From Chloroflexota bacterium (GTDB lineage Bacteria; Chloroflexota; Dehalococcoidia; Tepidiformales; Tepidiformaceae), in assembly GCA_016234445.1 (NCBI GenBank), contig JACRBT010000020.1:1-64000 (forward strand): DNA of 64,000 nucleotides. The letters run 5' to 3'. A program made the position numbers and the translations under genes. Shown piece by piece: positions 19,088-40,793 of this stretch; positions within the stretch are counted from its first letter, which is position 1, and every line of letters starts with the position of its first letter. Below the pieces are notes generated by a model. The model made no database searches, was not told the origin of the DNA, and worked only from the letters and a program-made list of their open reading frames with translations.

Positions 19088-19246
19088 GCCGTGGGGGCGT
19101 GCCGACGCCGCTCCCTCGCGGTCGCGGTACGGATGGGCGGTGGGGGCTGACGCGAGGCGGGAGATGCAGGTGATGCGGCCAGGGTCGGCCGCGGCTACGG
19201 GGGGCGGCCGGCAGCCGAGAGCCGACAGCCGACAGCCGACAGCCGG
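19088..19246. repeat. Intergenic repeats: family A, family B and a heptad array
   Basis: Three elements occur in series between the dienelactone hydrolase and the first lipoprotein gene. Family A (19088-19134) includes GACGCCGCTCCCTCGCGG and the GGTACGGAT end. Family B (about 19172-19198) has GATGCGGCCAGGG...GCGGCTAC. A degenerate heptanucleotide array of GCCGACA units (19211-19246) ends exactly at the lipoprotein stop codon. No open frame with protein-like composition is present. Confidence 0.75.
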
Positions 19247-27840: not shown

Positions 27841-27925
27841 CCGACAGCCGACAGCCGACAGCCGACAGCCACCAGCCACCACTAACAGCTAACAGCTAAC
27901 AGCTAACAGCTAACAGCTAACGGCT
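27841..27925. repeat. Heptanucleotide tandem array (CGACAGC then TAACAGC)
   Basis: About four CGACAGC units, two CACCAGC-like units, then five TAACAGC units and a TAACGGC, all in exact 7-bp register. The array ends within the stop codon of the CoA-ligase gene (27924). The reverse complement of TAACAGC (GCTGTTA) makes the array at 41021-41048. Confidence 0.9.
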
Positions 27926-29399
27926 ACACAATCTCCGGCAGGCCTTCGCGGTAGCGGCGCCATTCGAGCACCTGGTTCACCGTCCGCGCCGCCCGGGCGA
28001 CGCTCGGGTAGGCGCCGATGCCCTCCTTGTAGGCGGCTTCGAAGAAGGATTCGGTCGACATGCCCATGCGGCGGGCCATCCGGCCGCTCCGGACGATGCC
28101 GACCACCGGGGTGCCGGTTTCGTCTTCGAGGGCGCGCATCTGGCGGGCGGCTTTCTGGGCCATCTCCTCCTGGGCCTTCGATCGCTCCTCGCGGTCGGGC
28201 TGGGCGTCCGGGCTGCCCTGGTTCCTGGAGGGCCGGTACATCGGGCCCATGAAGACCATGTCGATCCCCTCGGCGCGGGCCACGATCCGGAGCATGTCCT
28301 CCATCCGCTCCTCGGGCGGGTTGGCGTCGATCGGGTTGTTCACGCTGCTGCCCGCGACGGGGATGAACTCGCGCATCTGGCGGACCGCCTCAGCCGGCAT
28401 CCGCGGCACGGTCAGGCCTTCCCGGTCGATGGCGTCGGAGGAGAGCACGGCAAAGCCGCCACCGCCGCCACCGATGAGGGCGACGCCCCGGCCGGTGATG
28501 CGCCGGGTGTTGGTCGAAGCCGCGACGACGAGGTCGTGCAGTTCCTCCATCGTCTCGGCGCGGATGGCGCCGCTCTGGCGGCAGACGGCGTCGAAGATCG
28601 CGGCGGACCCGGCGAGCGATCCCGTGTGCGAATGGGCGGCGCGCGTCCCCGACTGGGTGAGCCCGCCCTTGAGGATGATGGTCCGCTTCACGCGGGCGCA
28701 GCGCTTGAGCGCCTCGTAGAACGCCCGGCCTTCCTGGACGCCTTCGATGTAGGCGGTGACGACGTCTGTCTCGGGGTCGGTCGCGGCGTAGTCGAGGAAG
28801 TCGTGGGCGCGGAGGTCGGCGCCGTTGCCGTAGGAGACGACCTTCGAGAAGCGGACGCCGCGTCCCGTCAGTTCGCCGACGATTTCGCCCGCGTTCGCCC
28901 CGGACTGGGAGAGGAGGAAGACGTTCCCGGGCTCCATGGAGAAGCCCTCCATGAAGGCGAGGCGGCTGGAGGGGACGTAGAGGCCCATGCAGTTGGGGCC
29001 GATGGCGCGGATCCCGGCGGCGCGGAGCTTCGCGATCATCTCGCGTTCGACCGCCGCCAGCCGTTCGTCGCCGGTTTCGCCGAAGCCGGCGGTGAAGAAG
29101 TGGATCGAGCGCACCTTCTTGGCGATGCACTGGTCGACCAGTTGGGGGGCGACGGCTGCGGGCACCTGGGAGATGACGTGGTCGACGGGGTCCGGCGTGT
29201 CGAGCAAGGACGGGTAGCATTTGACCCCGTCGATCTCGTCGACCTTCGGGTTCACGGGGTAGAGGTTGCCAAGCTCGTGGTAGCCGGCTTCGCGGAGCGA
29301 CTGGTAGAAGCTCCCGAAGGCGTCTTTGCGGCTGGAGCGGACGCCGATGACGGCGACGGCGCGGGGGTGGAAGATCGGGTCAAGGGGATGCTCGGGCAC
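27924..29399 (-). CDS. NDP-forming acyl-CoA synthetase-like protein (alpha-type, no ATP-grasp)
   Basis: This 491-residue protein has an N-terminal CoA-binding Rossmann domain (HPRAVAVIGV...GNLYPVNPK...IGPNCMGLY, residues 1-140). A flavodoxin-like succinyl-CoA ligase domain follows (LSQSGANAGEIV), with the likely phospho-His in HSHTGSLAG (about 270), and a further alpha/beta domain. The beta subunit's ATP-grasp domain is absent. It therefore resembles the alpha part of ADP-forming acetyl-CoA synthetase and would need a partner encoded elsewhere. GTG start; the TAG stop runs directly into heptad repeats. Confidence 0.88.
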   Translation of the reverse strand: MPEHPLDPIFHPRAVAVIGVRSSRKDAFGSFYQSLREAGYHELGNLYPVNPKVDEIDGVKCYPSLLDTPDPVDHVISQVPAAVAPQLVDQCIAKKVRSIHFFTAGFGETGDERLAAVEREMIAKLRAAGIRAIGPNCMGLYVPSSRLAFMEGFSMEPGNVFLLSQSGANAGEIVGELTGRGVRFSKVVSYGNGADLRAHDFLDYAATDPETDVVTAYIEGVQEGRAFYEALKRCARVKRTIILKGGLTQSGTRAAHSHTGSLAGSAAIFDAVCRQSGAIRAETMEELHDLVVAASTNTRRITGRGVALIGGGGGGFAVLSSDAIDREGLTVPRMPAEAVRQMREFIPVAGSSVNNPIDANPPEERMEDMLRIVARAEGIDMVFMGPMYRPSRNQGSPDAQPDREERSKAQEEMAQKAARQMRALEDETGTPVVGIVRSGRMARRMGMSTESFFEAAYKEGIGAYPSVARAARTVNQVLEWRRYREGLPEIV

Positions 29400-33597: not shown

Positions 33598-33663
33598 CGT
33601 GGGTGTGTCCTCCGTAGACGTGGAAGGATGCCGGAACGCGCGACCGGCGGTCAAGCAAGGAAC

Positions 33664-33799
33664 GAGTGATGAGTGCTGAGTGCTGAGTGCTGAGTGGTGA
33701 GGGCTGAGGACTGGGGGGCTGAGGGCTCCAGACTCGGGACTTAGGACTCGGGACTCGGGACTTGGGACTGAGCACTGAGAACTGAGCACTCAGCACTCG
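33664..33799. repeat. Heptanucleotide tandem array (GAGTGCT / GGGACTC types)
   Basis: Degenerate 7-bp units run through the divergent gap between peroxiredoxin and the MpaB-like operon: GAGTGCT x3, then TGAGGGC/TGAGGAC, ACTCGGG x several, and ACTGAGC/ACTGAGA/ACTCAGC. TATAGT at 33809-33814 just beyond it is a likely -10 for the operon. Confidence 0.85.
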
Positions 33800-33849
33800 C
33801 TGGGCTGCTATAGTCCGTGGAACTTTCGGGCACGGGGGCAAGACCGCGC

Positions 33850-35085
33850 ATGGAGCTTGACGGAAAGTTCCTCGACAGCCGGCGTGAAGTGCCGGATCCG
33901 CCGGCGGATGCCCTGATCGCCTCGGTGTTCGAAGCCGACCCTTCGGCGACGTCGCTCGACCTGATCCGCGAGCTCGTCCGTACTGGGGCCACCAGCCACC
34001 CCGAACTCCAGCCCCGCTGGCAGGCGTTCTGCGACAGCGAAGACATCGGCCCCGTCGACTGGGACAAGGTGGAACGCGCGGAAGCTGTCTTCCGGCGATG
34101 GGGTCCGCAGATCGTCGTCTCGCTCTGTTTCGGTTCGCTGGCCGGGGGGTATGCGGCGACCCACATCGCCCACCTGCTGCTCGGGGTCTCCCGGCTCGAA
34201 AGCGACCCGAAGCGGCGCGTCTTCGAAACCGCCCAGCTGCTCTTCGACGTGCTTGGGCCCGGCGGATTGAAGCCCGGCGGGAAGGGTCGCGAAACGTCCG
34301 AGCGCGTGCGCCTGATGCACGCCGGGGTCCGGCACCTGTTGCAGCAGACACCCCGTTCGGGGCCGGGCCAGAACGAGGTGCGTACGCCCAACGGCGACCT
34401 CGCCTGGGACCTCTCCTGGGGTGTGCCCATCAACCAGGAACTGATGGCGGGGACGATCCTGACGATGTCGGCCCAGGTCCTCGAATGCCTGGCGACCCAG
34501 GGCGTCCGCCTCAGCCCCGAAGACCAGTGGGCCTACGTCTATGCGTGGTTCGTCGTCGGGCGGCTGATGGGCGTGCAGCCCGAGCTGGTCCCGGGGTCGC
34601 TCGACGAAGCGCGGCGGTTCTGGCGGGTGACAAAGGAACGCCAGTTCGCCGAATCGGCCGCCGCCGCCGAGATCGAGCAGCATCTCCTCGACGCGATGGC
34701 CGGCCTCGTCCCGCTTCGGACGATGCGCTTCATCCCCCGGGCGATGGTGATCTGGCTGAACGGGCCCGAAGTGGCGCGGATGGTCGGCCTGGCGCCCCTT
34801 CGCTGGCACGAACGGCTCCGTTTCGCGGGCTGGCGCCTGTTGGAGCGCACCGTCAGCTGGATCGAAGTCCGGAACCGCTTCGTGCGGCGACGGCTTGGTT
34901 CGACGGGGACGAAGATGGTGCAGCGCCTCGACGAGCGGGAACTGCGCGAAACCGCCGCGGACGGCCGTCCCGCCGCCGGTCAGCCGCGGGAGCCGTTTTC
35001 CATCCCGGCGGAACTCGCCGGCGAGTGGGCGCTCGCTTCGGCGGGAACGAAGGGCCGCCGCCGGCCGCCGGAGCCCGATAAGTGA
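33850..35085 (+). CDS. MpaB/DUF2236-family oxygenase-like protein
   Basis: This 411-residue helical protein of the MpaB (rubber oxygenase Lcp-related, DUF2236) family contains SLAGGYAATHIAHLLLG, KRRVFETAQLLFDVLG, ERVRLMHAGVRHLL and VPINQELMAGTILTMS. The last two match the R-x-x-H...Q-E layout of the family, known members of which bind b-type heme. Biological substrate unknown. ATG 33850 is preferred to GTG 33817 because TATAGT ends at 33814, too close to the GTG. Its stop overlaps the next gene by four bases (GTGA). Confidence 0.72.
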   Translation: MELDGKFLDSRREVPDPPADALIASVFEADPSATSLDLIRELVRTGATSHPELQPRWQAFCDSEDIGPVDWDKVERAEAVFRRWGPQIVVSLCFGSLAGGYAATHIAHLLLGVSRLESDPKRRVFETAQLLFDVLGPGGLKPGGKGRETSERVRLMHAGVRHLLQQTPRSGPGQNEVRTPNGDLAWDLSWGVPINQELMAGTILTMSAQVLECLATQGVRLSPEDQWAYVYAWFVVGRLMGVQPELVPGSLDEARRFWRVTKERQFAESAAAAEIEQHLLDAMAGLVPLRTMRFIPRAMVIWLNGPEVARMVGLAPLRWHERLRFAGWRLLERTVSWIEVRNRFVRRRLGSTGTKMVQRLDERELRETAADGRPAAGQPREPFSIPAELAGEWALASAGTKGRRRPPEPDK

Positions 35086-38000
35086 CGAGCGAGCGGGTCC
35101 AGCGCCAGGTCGACCGGCTGCTCACCGAGGCGGAAGACGCGATGGCGAGGGGCGACTGGGAGACCGTGCGCCTGCGGGCGGGCGCCGTGCTCCGCCTCCA
35201 ACCAAGGGACGAGGACGCGCTGACCTACTTGAGTGCCGCGGGCTCCGAACCGGCCGGTGGCAGCACCCTTCCCCCCTCCGCGACGGCCGCCCGCCCGGCC
35301 GAGCGCCGGCACATGGCCGTGATGTTCTGCGACCTCCGGGGTTCGACCGAGCTCTCAGAACGCATGGACCCGGAGGACCTTCGCGACGTCCTTCGCGCCT
35401 ACCACCGGGTGGCCGCCGACGCCGTCGACCGCCTTGGCGGCTACATTTCCCGCTACATGGGTGACGGTCTCCTCGTCTACTTCGGTTACCCGACCGCCCA
35501 CGAGGACGACCCGGACCGCGCCGTCCGCGCCGGGCTGGAGATTGTCGCTGCCGCCGCCGGCCTGCCCCTCTTGCCCCACGGTGGCGTGCCCGAAGTCCGA
35601 GTCGGCATCCACTACGGCCTTGCGGTGATCGCCGAAATGGGCGGTGGCAGCCGGATCGAGCCCAACGACGTGGTCGGCGAAACGGCGAACATCGCGGCCC
35701 GGATCCAGTCGCTGGCGCCGCCCTCGGCCGTTGTCGTCAGCGGCGAACTGGCGGCCCTCCTCCGCCATCCCCCGCAGATGGAGCGGCTCGGCCTGCGGGA
35801 GATCAAGGGCATCAGCCGCCCGATCGAGCTCTTCCGGGTCGCCGCGACCGGGGGCACGAGCGAACGCACCCGCCAGGGTGAGGGGCCGCTCGTCGGCCGT
35901 TCCCGCGAGCTTCGCCTGCTCGAATCAGCCTGGGCGAGCGCGCTGGCGGGCGAAGGCAGCGCCGTCCTCGTCTCGGGCGACGCCGGCCTCGGGAAGACGC
36001 GGCTCGCTTCCGAATTGCGCCGCCGCGCCCGGGCCGATGGCCACACCGTGATCCAGCTCCGGGGCTCTCCGTTCCACCAGAACACGGCCCTCCGCCCGAT
36101 CGTGGACCACCTCGCTCGCGTCCTCGAACTTGACCCGGCGACGCCGGGGGAAGAGATGCTCCGCCGCCTCGAGGAGTCGCTGGCCGGCCTCGGGTTGGAG
36201 CCGCGAGCACTTGTGCCGCCGTTGGCCGCGCTCCTCGGCCTCCCGAACGCGGCGGGCGTCCCAGGCTCCGAGCTCTCCGGCGCGGAACTCAAGGAGGCGA
36301 TCTTCGAGACGCTGGCGGCCTGGCTCCGGGCGGTCGTCCTGCGGGCGCCGACGCTCGTCATCGTCGAAGACCTCCACTGGCTCGACCCCAGCTCGGCGGA
36401 GCTCTTGTTGCGGATCGCCGGGCAGGTTGGGCGGCAGCGAATCCTGATCCTCCTCACGTCGCGGCCCGAACCTGGTGTGGCCCGGGCGACGGGCAAGGGG
36501 ATCGTCCAGATCACGCTCCAGCGGCTCGAACCGGAGACGACGCTGGAGCTCATCACAACGCTCGCGGAAGGCAGCACCCTTGCGGCGGGCGAAATCGAAC
36601 GGCTCGCAGGCCGCTCCGATGGGGTCCCGCTCTTCGCCGAGGAGCTGGTCCGCCTGGCGCTGGAGGGCGGGGCTCCCGCGGAGGCCCCGGGGCGGCAGGC
36701 GCCGCGCGAGTCGAACGTGCCCCCCGCCCTCTTCAGCTCGCTGATGGCCCGGCTCGACCGCATGGGGCCGGTCCGCGAACTCGCCCGGGTTGCGGCCGTC
36801 TGCGGGCGGGAAGTCCCGGTGCCGCTGCTCGCCGCAGCCGCCGGGGTGCCGGAAGCCGAGGCCCGGGCCGGCCTGGAACAGCTCACCGAGGCCGGGATCT
36901 GCATGCCGCTCCCGGGGGCCGGGGTCTACGCCTTCAAACACGCGCTGATCATGGACGTGGCCTACGAGTCGATGCTGCGCGCCGACCGCGTCGGACTGCA
37001 CGGCACGATCGCCGGCGTCATCGAGACGGCTTTCCCCGCCATCAGCGAAAGCGAACCGGAGGTGCTCGCCCACCACCTCGAACGCGCGGGGGCCGGGGCG
37101 CGGGCGATCCCCTACCTGCGGCGGGCGGCGGCGAGGGCGGTCGCCCAATCCGCTAACACCGAGGCGGTGAACCACCTGGGCCGGGCACTCAGCCTGCTGG
37201 ACCCGGCGGCGGGATCGGCTGCGCTGGAACTCGAACTCCGCAACGCCCTCGGCCCGCCGCTGATCGCGACCGTCGGCTATTCCAGCCCCGCGGTCGAAGA
37301 GAACTACGGCCGGGCAACGGAGGTGTCGAGGCTCCTCGCCGACCCCGGCCAGTCCTTCCAGGCGCTCTCCGGGCTGCGGCGCTTCCACCAGGTCCACGGC
37401 GACGTGCCGAGGGCGAGGTCGATCAGCGAAGAGCTGGTGAAGCTGGCGGACGGCATCGGCGAGCCCGTCCTCCGGGGCATCGCCCACCACGCCCTCGGCG
37501 AAGCCTTCTTCCTGGGCGGCGAGCCGGGTCGGGCGCGGACGGAACTCGAAGCGGCCCGCACGATCCTCGACGCCTGCCGGGCCGACGGCGTGGCGGCAGC
37601 ACGGGACCCATCCGTGACGGTCCGGGCTTATCTCGGACTCACGTACTGGGCGCTTGGCCATCCGAACCTCGCGCTCGCCACGGTCTCCGAGGCGGTGGCT
37701 GTGGCCGTGGAAGTCGAATCGCTCTTCGGAACGGCCTATGCGCTCGTGCTTTCGGCCTGGATCCACGAACTTCGGGGCGAGCCTCTCGATGCGATTCGTT
37801 GCGCCGAGGCCGGGCGGGCGGTGGCCCTCGAACACCGCTTCCCTTACTGGGTCCACGGCGCGACCGTCTACGGCGCCTGGGCGAGGGCTGTCCTTGGCGA
37901 CGCGGATGGCCTTGCCGAGTTCATTCGCGGGCTCGAAGGGTTCCGGGCCATCGGCGCCCGGACGACCGAGGCTCACCTCCTCGCCCTGCTCGCCGAGATG

Positions 38001-38408
38001 AAGGCCATCCACGAAGGCCCGGCTTCCGCGATTGAGGCCATCGAAGAGGGCTTCGCCGCCGCCAACGAAAGTGGCGAGCTCCAGTGGCTCCCTGACCTCT
38101 ACCGGCTGCGCGCCGGCTTCAGGCTGCAGCTCGACCCCGCTGACAGGCCGGGCGCCCTGGCCGACATCGAGACAGCCCTGTCCCTCGCCCGCGAATCTGG
38201 CGCCCGTTCGCTGGAACTTCGGGCCGCCGTGACCTTCGCCACCGTGTGCCTGGCGATCGAACCGCCAGGCAGCCGCGGTGTCATCGTCCTGCGAGAGGCG
38301 ATCGACGCCTTCCCCGAGGAGAGCCCCTCCCCCCAGCTGGACGCCGCCCGGGAACTCCTGGTCCGGCTCTCCAGCACTCCCGGCACCGAGAAAGAGGCAA
38401 CCAGATGA
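35082..38408 (+). CDS. Adenylate/guanylate cyclase - AAA ATPase - TPR regulator
   Basis: The 1108-residue protein opens with a short TPR-like hairpin (1-50). A class III nucleotide cyclase domain follows (77-255), with metal Asp84 (FCDLRGST) and Asp128 (MGDGLLVYFG), and Asn203/Arg207 (TANIAARIQ) kept. The usual substrate Lys before MGD is Arg124. Next come an ATPase with Walker A GDAGLGKT (299-306) and Walker B LVIVEDLHWLD, and a long C-terminal helical/TPR array (about 650-1100). The architecture is that of large signalling ATPases. Overlaps with both neighbours show tight translational coupling, so it is likely to control or sense the two enzymes beside it. Confidence 0.88.
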   Translation: MTSERVQRQVDRLLTEAEDAMARGDWETVRLRAGAVLRLQPRDEDALTYLSAAGSEPAGGSTLPPSATAARPAERRHMAVMFCDLRGSTELSERMDPEDLRDVLRAYHRVAADAVDRLGGYISRYMGDGLLVYFGYPTAHEDDPDRAVRAGLEIVAAAAGLPLLPHGGVPEVRVGIHYGLAVIAEMGGGSRIEPNDVVGETANIAARIQSLAPPSAVVVSGELAALLRHPPQMERLGLREIKGISRPIELFRVAATGGTSERTRQGEGPLVGRSRELRLLESAWASALAGEGSAVLVSGDAGLGKTRLASELRRRARADGHTVIQLRGSPFHQNTALRPIVDHLARVLELDPATPGEEMLRRLEESLAGLGLEPRALVPPLAALLGLPNAAGVPGSELSGAELKEAIFETLAAWLRAVVLRAPTLVIVEDLHWLDPSSAELLLRIAGQVGRQRILILLTSRPEPGVARATGKGIVQITLQRLEPETTLELITTLAEGSTLAAGEIERLAGRSDGVPLFAEELVRLALEGGAPAEAPGRQAPRESNVPPALFSSLMARLDRMGPVRELARVAAVCGREVPVPLLAAAAGVPEAEARAGLEQLTEAGICMPLPGAGVYAFKHALIMDVAYESMLRADRVGLHGTIAGVIETAFPAISESEPEVLAHHLERAGAGARAIPYLRRAAARAVAQSANTEAVNHLGRALSLLDPAAGSAALELELRNALGPPLIATVGYSSPAVEENYGRATEVSRLLADPGQSFQALSGLRRFHQVHGDVPRARSISEELVKLADGIGEPVLRGIAHHALGEAFFLGGEPGRARTELEAARTILDACRADGVAAARDPSVTVRAYLGLTYWALGHPNLALATVSEAVAVAVEVESLFGTAYALVLSAWIHELRGEPLDAIRCAEAGRAVALEHRFPYWVHGATVYGAWARAVLGDADGLAEFIRGLEGFRAIGARTTEAHLLALLAEMKAIHEGPASAIEAIEEGFAAANESGELQWLPDLYRLRAGFRLQLDPADRPGALADIETALSLARESGARSLELRAAVTFATVCLAIEPPGSRGVIVLREAIDAFPEESPSPQLDAARELLVRLSSTPGTEKEATR

Positions 38409-39769
38409 ACCCATCAGACCCCGCAGCAGGCCTCGGAACGGCGGCGACCTACCCGTTCGTTTCGGCCCTGACCCAGCGCCGATCGCGCCGCTTCGCCAAG
38501 GGGATGACGCTCAACGGCGGCCCCCTGGCCTACACCAGCACCGAGCCCCCCGAGCCCCTCACGGACGCCGAGGAAGCCGCCCTCGCCTTCGCCGCCGTCG
38601 GCATCACCGGGTACGCGCTCGGGGAACTCGCCTACGACACCGGCAACGTCCCCGACGCCGGCAGCGGCAACGTCATGAGCCAGTTCTACGCGCGGACCGC
38701 CGCCAGCGGCGACAGCATCCACGCCGACTCGCTTTTCGTGATGAACGACACGGGCACCTGGCTGGTGCGCCGGCCCCGCGAGCTCAGCCCGGAGGAGTGC
38801 GCCCGCATGGCCGCCGACGCCGCCAGCGGGGACATCCTGAGCTTCTACGGCGAGGCGCGGGTCCAGATCTCGGACACCCGCATCGACGTCGAGCGGGCGA
38901 TCCCGTTCGTCCCGGCGTTCAACAACTACTCGGCCAACCGGCCCGGCACCACCTATTTCTTGCCCGTCCACCACATGTCGGCCTTCTACATCAACGTCCT
39001 CCTGACCGCGTTCAACGAGGAGTTCGGCTACTACCTGGTGGACGACACGTCGCGCTTCCAGCCGGCCGGGGTCAAGCGGTTCGCACGTTCGAAGGGCGGG
39101 CACCTGTACGACAGCCCCGCTGCCGGGCGCACCATCCCCATCGGCGTCCTCGACACGTGGATGCACGAATTCGCCGCGATCGAACAGGGCGCCATCCTCC
39201 AAAACCTCGGCTTGATGACCCAGGCGCTCGGCCTTGGCGGCTTCGCCCACTTCGCCCACCACCCTGACGCCTGGTTCAAAGCGCTCAACTTCCGGATGCA
39301 GCACGACACCTTCACGAAGAGCGTGGGCATGTCGGCGCCCATGCGGCTGCTGGTGAAGCTGATGCGCCGGGACATGGACGTCGTCGTCCCCGTGGGGCTT
39401 GAGAAGGGTGGAGAGGTGCTCCTTCGCCCCTTTGCGCCGCCCTATTACAAGAACATGGAGGAAGCGGTCCTCGCCTACGTGGACTGGAAATATGGCCCCC
39501 ACGGCACCCTCAAGGACATCGGCGGCCGGAGCGCCTTCAAGGACCCTGCCGGGGTTGCCGCCGGGATCCCGCGGTGCTCGGAGAAGGCGCTGGCGGCGAC
39601 GATCGCCTACTGCACCTATGTCTACGAGCGCTTCGGCCGCTTCCCGGCGACGAACGGGCCATTCCGGACGGTCCTCGCCTACCAGGCCCACCACCTGGAC
39701 CCGGCCTTCTACGCGCGCTTCTATAAGGAAGACGCCCTGAGCGAAACGCAGCGCGCGCACAGCCACTGA
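38405..39769 (+). CDS. Nitroreductase-fold-like protein, third gene of the operon
   Basis: This 454-residue protein lacks a signal or membrane segments. The N-terminal RRSRRFAKGM with helical ALAFAAVGITGYALGE, the strand SLFVMNDTG, and LQNLGLMTQALGLGGFAHFAHH further on resemble the FMN-binding nitroreductase fold (R-rich start; QNLxLxAxALGLG). At 454 residues it is about twice the usual nitroreductase size, with unknown extra regions. ATG 38405 overlaps the cyclase stop (ATGA). Family assignment is by pattern only. Confidence 0.55.
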   Translation: MNPSDPAAGLGTAATYPFVSALTQRRSRRFAKGMTLNGGPLAYTSTEPPEPLTDAEEAALAFAAVGITGYALGELAYDTGNVPDAGSGNVMSQFYARTAASGDSIHADSLFVMNDTGTWLVRRPRELSPEECARMAADAASGDILSFYGEARVQISDTRIDVERAIPFVPAFNNYSANRPGTTYFLPVHHMSAFYINVLLTAFNEEFGYYLVDDTSRFQPAGVKRFARSKGGHLYDSPAAGRTIPIGVLDTWMHEFAAIEQGAILQNLGLMTQALGLGGFAHFAHHPDAWFKALNFRMQHDTFTKSVGMSAPMRLLVKLMRRDMDVVVPVGLEKGGEVLLRPFAPPYYKNMEEAVLAYVDWKYGPHGTLKDIGGRSAFKDPAGVAAGIPRCSEKALAATIAYCTYVYERFGRFPATNGPFRTVLAYQAHHLDPAFYARFYKEDALSETQRAHSH

Positions 39770-39867
39770 GGGCGGAGGACTGAGGACTGAGGGCGGAGGA
39801 CTGAGGACTGAGGACTTGGGACGCGGGACGCGGAACTCGGAACTCGGAACTCGGAACTCGGAACTCA
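39767..39867. repeat. Heptanucleotide tandem array (GAGGACT, GGGACGC, GGAACTC)
   Basis: Starts at the TGA stop of the nitroreductase-like gene and runs as GAGGACT/GAGGGCG units, then GGGACGC x2, then GGAACTC x5 in 7-bp register. It ends at CACCGGGTGTACACGCCG, the sequence that begins the duplicated monooxygenase unit. Confidence 0.9.
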
Positions 39868-39929
39868 CCGGGTGTACACGCCGGGCGGCGCCGGGTAGAC
39901 TCGCCGGCACTTTCAGGGAGGTAGGAGCC

Positions 39930-40280
39930 ATGACCAGCACTGTAAGAATTGTCGGGACGATGTCCATCAACCAGGGCAAGCGGGATGAGTTGACGGCCCT
40001 GATAGACGCCATGCACAAGGTGATGCGCGAGAAGGACCCGGGCACGCTCACGCACGACTGGTACATCGACGAGGCAGGGAGCGAATGCGTGGTCCATGAG
40101 GTCTACGCCAGCTCGGAGGCCGCGCTCGCGCACATGGCGAACGTGAGCGAACAGCTTGGGAGGCTCTTCGAACTGGGGACGATCGTCTCCGCGGTGGTCT
40201 GCGGGGACCCTTCGCCAGAGGCCCGGGCGGCGCTCGCGGGATTCGGCGCGAAGATCCTCCCCACGCTAAAGACGTACTGA
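39930..40280 (+). CDS. Antibiotic-biosynthesis-monooxygenase (ABM) domain protein, copy 1
   Basis: This 116-residue dimeric alpha/beta-barrel (ABM/YgiN-like) protein has KRDELTALIDAMHKVMREKDPGTLTHDWYIDEAGSECVVHEVYASSEAALAHM, the typical ABM strand-helix order. It is likely a small quinol monooxygenase, heme-degrading-like or stress protein; substrate unknown. GGGAGGTAGGAG lies upstream and TAGACT may be the -10. A second copy starts 456 bp on with the same upstream sequence. Confidence 0.85.
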   Translation: MTSTVRIVGTMSINQGKRDELTALIDAMHKVMREKDPGTLTHDWYIDEAGSECVVHEVYASSEAALAHMANVSEQLGRLFELGTIVSAVVCGDPSPEARAALAGFGAKILPTLKTY

Positions 40281-40322
40281 GGGCGGGGGACTCGGGACTC
40301 GGAACTCGGAACTCGGAACTCA
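40278..40322. repeat. Heptanucleotide array between the two ABM genes
   Basis: GGGACTC and GGAACTC units in 7-bp register begin at the stop codon of ABM copy 1. They end at CACCGGGTGTACACGCCG, the same junction sequence as at 39868. Confidence 0.88.
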
Positions 40323-40385
40323 CCGGGTGTACACGCCGCACGGCGCCGGATAGACTCGCGGGCATTTCCAGCGGAGGTAAGAGCC

Positions 40386-40736
40386 ATGAGTGGCAGTTTG
40401 CAATTTGTCGTGACGATGTCCTTGCACCCGGGCAAGCGGGACGAACTGGCGGCCGTGGCGGACGCCATGCAGAAGGTGATGCGCGAAAAGGACCCGGGCA
40501 CCCTCGCGCAAGACTGGTACGTCGACGAAGCCGGCAGCGAATGCGTCATCTTTGAGGCCTACGCCAGCTCCGAGGCCCTCCTCGCCCACATGGCGAATGT
40601 GAGCGAACAGAGTGCGCGGCTCGTGGAACTCGGCTCGATCACCTCCGTGGTTGCCCTCGGCGACCCTTCGCCCGACGCCCGGGCCGCCCTTGCCGGGTGG
40701 GGCGCGAAGATCCTCCCCACGCTGCGAACGTACTGA
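40386..40736 (+). CDS. ABM domain protein, copy 2
   Basis: This 116-residue paralogue of the gene at 39930 has the same length and most residues (KVMREKDPGTLAQDWYVDEAGSECVIFEAYASSEA). Several changes are conservative; the C-terminal AGWGAKILPTLRTY matches AGFGAKILPTLKTY. The upstream GTGTACACGCCG...GGATAGACTCG and GGAGGTAAGAGCC are duplicated too. Coding is therefore maintained after duplication. Confidence 0.85.
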   Translation: MSGSLQFVVTMSLHPGKRDELAAVADAMQKVMREKDPGTLAQDWYVDEAGSECVIFEAYASSEALLAHMANVSEQSARLVELGSITSVVALGDPSPDARAALAGWGAKILPTLRTY

Positions 40737-40793
40737 TGACTCGGGACTCGGGACTCGGAACTCGGAACTCGGAACTCGGAACTCGGAACTCGC
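40736..40793. repeat. Heptanucleotide array between convergent stops
   Basis: ACTCGGG x2 and GGAACTC x5 fill the whole gap between the TGA of ABM copy 2 and the TAA of the 69-residue gene on the other strand. Confidence 0.9.

Follow-up and report, generated by a model that had tools for sequence, protein, structure and literature searches.

Genes for MpaB/Lcp-type oxygenases of the kind described here (P0001 type, that of gene 1) are paired with signalling genes more often than expected by chance across distant bacteria. This recurrent pairing suggests that oxygenase chemistry is tied to cell signalling. Our reference case lies in the window, a stretch of 64,000 nucleotides belonging to a 3.54 Mb genome of 20 contigs, where an MpaB/Lcp-type gene is followed by genes for a nucleotide cyclase-ATPase-TPR protein and a divergent nitroreductase-fold protein (Table 1). 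The component families are known; the recurrent pairing of oxygenase and signalling genes appears undescribed in the literature searched, where no report was found of MpaB/DUF2236 linked with cyclases. The first-pass annotation had remarked that it knew of no described pathway with this set.

The three genes had been said to be joined by four-base overlaps, and inspection of the open reading frames confirmed this: genes 1 and 2 share GTGA (35082-35085), and genes 2 and 3 share ATGA (38405-38408). A four-base overlap is a frequent form of translational coupling and by itself nothing unusual. The ATG of gene 1 fits the N-termini of its homologs, and the GTG of gene 2 fits a paralog in the same genome that starts MVSERIQRRID. 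A scan for sigma-70-like promoters between the divergent peroxiredoxin gene and gene 1 found none, and promoter and terminator scans at the operon gave no useful result. Just 3' of the operon, two genes with an ABM domain (antibiotic biosynthesis monooxygenase; 39930-40280 and 40386-40736) follow in tandem on its strand, both within a 456-bp tandem duplication (39826-40777); they could form one unit with the operon. Short repeats of 7 bp (ACTGAGG, CGGAACT and CCGACAG among others) recur between genes, including both operon flanks (33664-33797, 39765-39866, 40290-40321, 40739-40792, 27841-27926 and 19207-19245). A separate 147-bp unit is present in 3.5 copies of 97% identity at 35-549 of the window.

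Table 1. Coordinates of the operon, its domains and flanks, and of a probable related gene run
Feature	Position	Strand	Basis
Gene 1, MpaB/Lcp-type heme oxygenase, 411 aa	33850..35085	+	PF09995, phmmer, model, invariant residues
Gene 2, class III nucleotide cyclase - AAA_16 (STAND) ATPase - TPR, 1108 aa, GTG start	35082..38408	+	Pfam; NCBIfam
Gene 2 cyclase domain (Guanylate_cyc), residues 77-243: D84, D128, R124, D196, N203, R207	35310..35810	+	Pfam
Gene 2 AAA_16/STAND ATPase domain, residues 269-456	35886..36449	+	Pfam
Gene 3, divergent nitroreductase-fold, probably FMN-dependent oxidoreductase, 454 aa, ATG start	38405..39769	+	AlphaFold, Foldseek/VIA, alignment
Upstream intergenic region with 7-bp repeats, divergent peroxiredoxin gene to gene 1	33598..33849		
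Downstream intergenic region with 7-bp repeats	39770..39929		
Probable five-gene run of G240, split by contig end	L043 1-4383 and L096 1-4710		

P0001-type MpaB genes were gathered by several searches, genes were called, and eight kinds of signalling domain were marked with locally built profiles; 37 windows of 14-20 kb picked regardless of content (627 genes) served as controls. Within two genes on either side of MpaB (±2), 6 of 39 genes in a first set of eleven lineages were signalling genes. A second set of six lineages, some of them related on the tree, gave 4 of 23 (p 0.018). This set was examined after the hypothesis had been fixed, the hypothesis being entered together with the last search while the result was still unseen. 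Combined, and as counted with a home-made gene caller and profiles seeded partly from the test proteins, signalling genes made up 10 of 62 neighbours against 26 of 627 random genes (p 6.6e-4, with categories partly picked after the first set), and 10 of the 17 lineages had one within ±2. Cyclase/STAND genes alone, a subset that like the ±3 range was not stated beforehand, accounted for 7/62 against 3/627 (p 3.3e-6). Twenty MPAB genes belonging to other subtypes, taken as a negative control, had 3 signalling genes among 79 neighbours and no cyclase/STAND gene; the P0001 type differed from them at p 0.013 for signalling and p 0.0026 for cyclase/STAND.

The partners are of several kinds. Pfam confirmed cyclase-AAA-TPR proteins beside MpaB in G080, G798 and G1214, and identified cyclase-AAA (G1095), cyclase-NB-ARC (G1111), kinase-AAA-TPR (G240) and BTAD-AAA (SARP-AAA; G1158) partners, together with a PAS-GGDEF-EAL gene adjoining MpaB in G804 and a cNMP-binding methyltransferase gene overlapping it in G608. 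Weaker AAA_16 partners occur in G1212 (above the Pfam cut-off) and G1215 (below it). The signalling partners in G1214 and G1215 sit three genes away (+3) and were not counted within ±2. In G350, GGDEF-EAL was called with the local profiles only. In Actinomycetota, a family of about 360 residues that has no Pfam match is also found near MpaB (L225 1546-2622, L226 14642-15730, L170 6065-7225 and L227 6542-8926), apparently fused N-terminal to it in L227.

The assignment of gene 1 as an MpaB oxygenase was borne out by family and by fold. Residues 90-336 match MPAB_Lcp_cat (PF09995) at 5.6e-24, with 85.9 bits against a cut-off of 23 (Pfam), and phmmer matched the protein to latex-clearing protein at 5.5e-13. 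Its AlphaFold model (pLDDT 83; one plasmid-record row was left out of the folding alignment) superposes on LcpK30 (5o1l) at Z 28.9 over 331-339 residues and on t-anethole oxygenase (8s1j) at Z 18.4, followed by protoglobin at Z 7.7. Gene 1 residues R123, E126, T127, R154, H157 and R161 correspond to LcpK30 R164, K167, T168, R195, H198 and R202. In LcpK30, the heme is bound proximally by His198, the distal site has Arg164 and Thr168 as essential residues, Arg195 and Arg202 have a stabilising role, and the distal Lys167 is only 59% conserved (PMC5522427). Among 13 diverse gene 1 homologs, R123, R154, H157 and R161 are invariant and T127 and E126 nearly so; heme-pocket residues are all kept in gene 1 save the variable distal Lys, which is Glu here. 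As these residues are invariant or nearly so, gene 1 is very probably a heme-binding oxygenase with a different distal ligand, judging from sequence and model, and probably breaks carbon-carbon double bonds. With PF09995 above the gathering score, the proximal His and the conserved Arg/Thr, it belongs to the MpaB/Lcp family; with Glu126 at the Lys167 position and the Glu148 position not kept in the phmmer alignment, it falls outside latex-clearing protein in the strict sense.

Terpenoid genes adjoin several relatives of gene 1. A Pyr4-like terpene cyclase gene overlaps MpaB in G882 and G1111 and is adjacent to it in G080, and a polyprenyl synthase gene lies upstream of MpaB in Streptomyces. 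The cleavage target of MpaB itself is a farnesyl chain, and alkenes and rubber are cleaved by family members from bacteria (PMC12724181). Because of these neighbours and the known C=C cleavage by the family, our leading guess for the substrate of gene 1 is an isoprenoid or similar alkene. No homolog of terpene cyclase or polyprenyl synthase was detected within the 64-kb window.

The features first noticed in gene 2, namely both metal Asp residues of a cyclase, an ATPase and TPRs, were recovered, the TPRs being weak and below the Pfam cut-off. The metal pair (D84 and D128) and the transition-state Asn and Arg (N203 and R207) give the cyclase domain the residues of a class III enzyme. The Arg said to replace the usual base-specifying Lys (ATP) was seen as R124, a position occupied by K, R, D or E in related cyclases. 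The ATPase has a Walker A motif (GDAGLGKT at 299) and a Walker B-like motif (VIVEDLHWLD at 426). Gene 2 has an ordinary, widespread architecture: 175 plasmid records, mostly rhizobial, match it at E<=1e-40, the best at 35-37% identity, and the rhizobial relatives stand apart from enzyme genes in 4/4 loci opened. Over its full length gene 2 also matches, at 35%, the cyclase protein encoded near MpaB in G798, but this was dismissed as not special, since rhizobial proteins match gene 2 equally. The window's genome also encodes a paralog with kinase, STAND and cyclase parts (L198 6935-11254, contig C1); it shares the N-terminal segment of about 70 residues of gene 2, which recurs in several proteins of the genome.

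Pfam found no family for gene 3 at E<=1, including PF00881 (Nitroreductase). Its AlphaFold model (pLDDT 79, from 16 sequences) nevertheless resembles nitroreductases: the 50 of 108 Foldseek matches listed were all nitroreductase-fold, and VIA aligned it with BT_0217 at Z 12.0 (167 residues, 3.1 A). Since the model matches FMN nitroreductases, a flavin fold is supported for gene 3 at the level of modelling, and its first description as nitroreductase-like was right; the protein may accordingly be expected to bind FMN. It carries RRSRR near residue 26 and QNLGLMTQALGLGG near residue 266. Families and folds together support the proposal that two likely redox enzymes are coupled to a signalling protein. 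That the coupling is stoichiometric and the system a self-contained one that senses and modifies, as first suggested, would go beyond these results.

Relatives of gene 3 have a wide but patchy distribution (Nocardia, Planctomycetales, Haladaptatus, Rhizobium plasmids and further genomes from the phylum of the window). They are called 'hypothetical protein' wherever plasmid records annotate them, and none was confirmed in viral contigs. Members of one gene 3 subfamily are accompanied by a true nitroreductase and by a small protein of about 120 residues (L049 7818-13493, L051 1678-5695 and L018 1335-3900), possibly a separate conserved cluster; L049 and L051 also have thiolase-like and AMP-ligase-like genes. 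In L051, an 817-aa frame joins the gene 3 homolog to the true nitroreductase; it seems to reflect read-through of a linker made of repeats and was not relied on. Rhizobial plasmid homologs adjoin heme 'peroxidase family' genes (L064 798-7314 and L062 3086-7348), with a cytochrome c in L064 as well, which is another heme-oxidase context for this family. The genome's second gene 3 homolog (C20:399076-400251, in L041 8984-18399) has molybdopterin oxidoreductase-like genes (by eye), a CopD-like gene and an AMP-ligase gene as neighbours. A Nocardia vaccinii homolog adjoining a HAMP-cyclase was discounted, the arrangement not being kept in a 56%-identical relative.

Among the loci examined, the exact trio is complete in the window alone, and it is nearly private to the window's genome. 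Searching 23 gene 3 loci by tblastn with P0001, P0002 and P0003 detected no MpaB and gave one AAA match (L049); this was rejected as a fusion, being a separate LuxR/MalT-like gene. Signalling genes were 2 of 56 neighbours of gene 3 homologs, which is the base rate, and genes 1 and 3 were absent from the sampled genomes of the same family. A probable second case is split by a contig end in the distant genome G240. There, contig C184 ends within an MpaB gene preceded at 37 bp by the kinase-AAA-TPR gene. Contig C45 starts within a gene for a Pyr4-like terpene cyclase (phmmer 5.6e-8; Pfam 0.0029, under the cut-off), after which come, in the same orientation, a histidine kinase gene and then a gene 3 homolog (43% identity). 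The contigs have G+C of 0.456 and 0.450, respectively, and a tetranucleotide correlation of 0.92; no end overlap was found between them. As the parts lacking from the two contigs add up to a few hundred bases, the most likely order in G240, read across the contig gap, is kinase-AAA-TPR, MpaB, terpene cyclase, histidine kinase and gene 3 homolog, all co-directional. Thus, from the three-family adjacency that the first-pass annotation proposed to look for, the MpaB-signalling pair stood (10/17 lineages), and the trio did not extend beyond the window and this one probable case. The trio is probably functional; gene 3 may possibly have joined it by chance assembly.

With slightly less than even confidence, we favour the view that the three genes are an operon, coupled in translation, that oxidises a hydrophobic alkene (most likely an isoprenoid) under regulation, the cyclase protein either sensing this chemistry or being gated by it. 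The model builds on what is established: the gene structure, the families and folds of the products, the conserved residues of the heme pocket and the recurrent MpaB-signalling association. Gene 1 would bind b-type heme and cleave or oxygenate a C=C bond, and gene 3, as an FMN oxidoreductase, would reduce or dehydrogenate the product or precursor. Gene 2 would be the regulator: a ligand or protein at its AAA-TPR part could gate an active cyclase and so let it sense the pathway, and the cyclic nucleotide would tune expression or activity. Several observations speak against this operon model: gene 3 relatives lie mostly away from MpaB or signalling genes, the very common kind of protein to which gene 2 belongs stands alone in the rhizobial loci opened, genes 1 and 3 are missing from the sampled genomes of the same family, and the search of the window for terpene cyclase or polyprenyl synthase homologs detected none. 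A broader idea, speculative and on balance doubtful, is that an MpaB/Lcp clade of Actinomycetota and the window's phylum is dedicated to signalling, making or removing an isoprenoid-derived ligand, or sensing O2 or redox, for the adjoining signalling proteins.

The main rival, which we consider rather unlikely, casts gene 1 as a heme-based sensor of O2, NO or redox, with the Lcp-type 3/3 globin fold, that signals to the cyclase output of gene 2; in relatives, the heme protein would drive kinases, GGDEF-EAL or cNMP-binding partners. Sensor-output pairs usually show such a pattern, in which the MpaB-type protein stays constant and the signalling outputs vary, and Lcp has been likened to globin-coupled sensors (PMC5522427). 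The nearly invariant Glu at the distal-ligand position of gene 1 also favours a sensor, as does the protoglobin match, although its Z is at background level. However, the catalytic Arg and Thr are retained, terpene cyclase or polyprenyl synthase genes adjoin gene 1 relatives, and a second redox enzyme lies within the operon. It is also conceivable, though not probable, that a recent rearrangement or horizontal transfer placed common families side by side and that they share no function. The unconserved trio, the abundance of gene 2's kind, the scatter of gene 3 relatives and the repeats on both flanks fit such an accident; the two four-base overlaps, the signalling excess beside the P0001-type clade with its specific negative control, and the probable second trio in G240 argue against it.

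We give very little credence to two further readings. Peptide modification of RiPP/TOMM type, with gene 2 akin to a TOMM kinase/cyclase and gene 3 to azoline oxidases, is brought to mind by the closest NCBIfam model to gene 2, TOMM_kin_cyc (TIGR03903; 523 bits, cut-off 705.75), by McbC and BmdC among the gene 3 fold matches, and by a faint match of gene 3 to the SagB model TIGR03605 (12.7 bits, cut-off 78.4). Both scores are nonetheless below curated cut-offs, ordinary nitroreductases outrank McbC, and the TOMM_kin_cyc match starts at profile position 279, the kinase domain being absent (Pfam, NCBIfam). Moreover, since MpaB-linked STAND proteins at other loci score on TOMM_kin_cyc as well, the score reflects shared domains. 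Anti-phage signalling, in which a Pycsar-like cyclase or a STAND sensor would act with effector enzymes, seems just as improbable. PADLOC PycC profiles match the cyclase domain of gene 2 (best 1.8e-18) and a gene for an Mrr-like nuclease is found about 2.5 kb upstream, but the match is limited to the domain common to all class III cyclases, genes 1 and 3 have no PADLOC match, and no Pycsar effector was recognised.

To our knowledge, few ligands have been described for cyclase-AAA-TPR proteins, very common as these are, and their recurrent pairing with one oxygenase clade suggests something specific and testable that some of them may sense. The pairing also gives a physiological context to the heme oxygenases of bacteria that cleave C=C bonds, known mostly from rubber degradation or in vitro screens. 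If a signalling-dedicated MpaB/Lcp clade did exist, it would constitute a new class of oxygenase-coupled second-messenger circuit, with STAND-cyclase, STAND-kinase, SARP, GGDEF-EAL or cNMP-binding proteins as adjoining partners.

Compared with known systems, gene 1 is closest to LcpK30 (5o1l/5o1m) in its whole fold, its proximal His and its equivalents of Arg164, Thr168, Arg195 and Arg202. It differs from LcpK30 in sequence (20-21% identity), in Glu126 for the distal Lys167, at the Glu148 position and in its coupling to a cyclase regulator. With the MpaB-type C=C-cleaving oxygenases, t-anethole oxygenase (8s1j) and Nro1 (PMC12724181), it shares the PF09995 family and the fold, and a b-type heme would be expected in gene 1 too, whereas identity to 8s1j is 9% over the aligned part. 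Gene 3 has its core fold in common with the FMN nitroreductases BT_0217 and BF3017 and the azoline oxidases McbC and BmdC (Z 9-12), but it has no Pfam or NCBIfam membership and large insertions within its 454 residues. Gene 2 shares the cyclase-AAA-TPR body of TOMM kinase/cyclase and of the rhizobial proteins. It differs from the former in having no kinase domain; by contrast with the four rhizobial relatives examined, which are alone, gene 2 overlaps enzyme genes.
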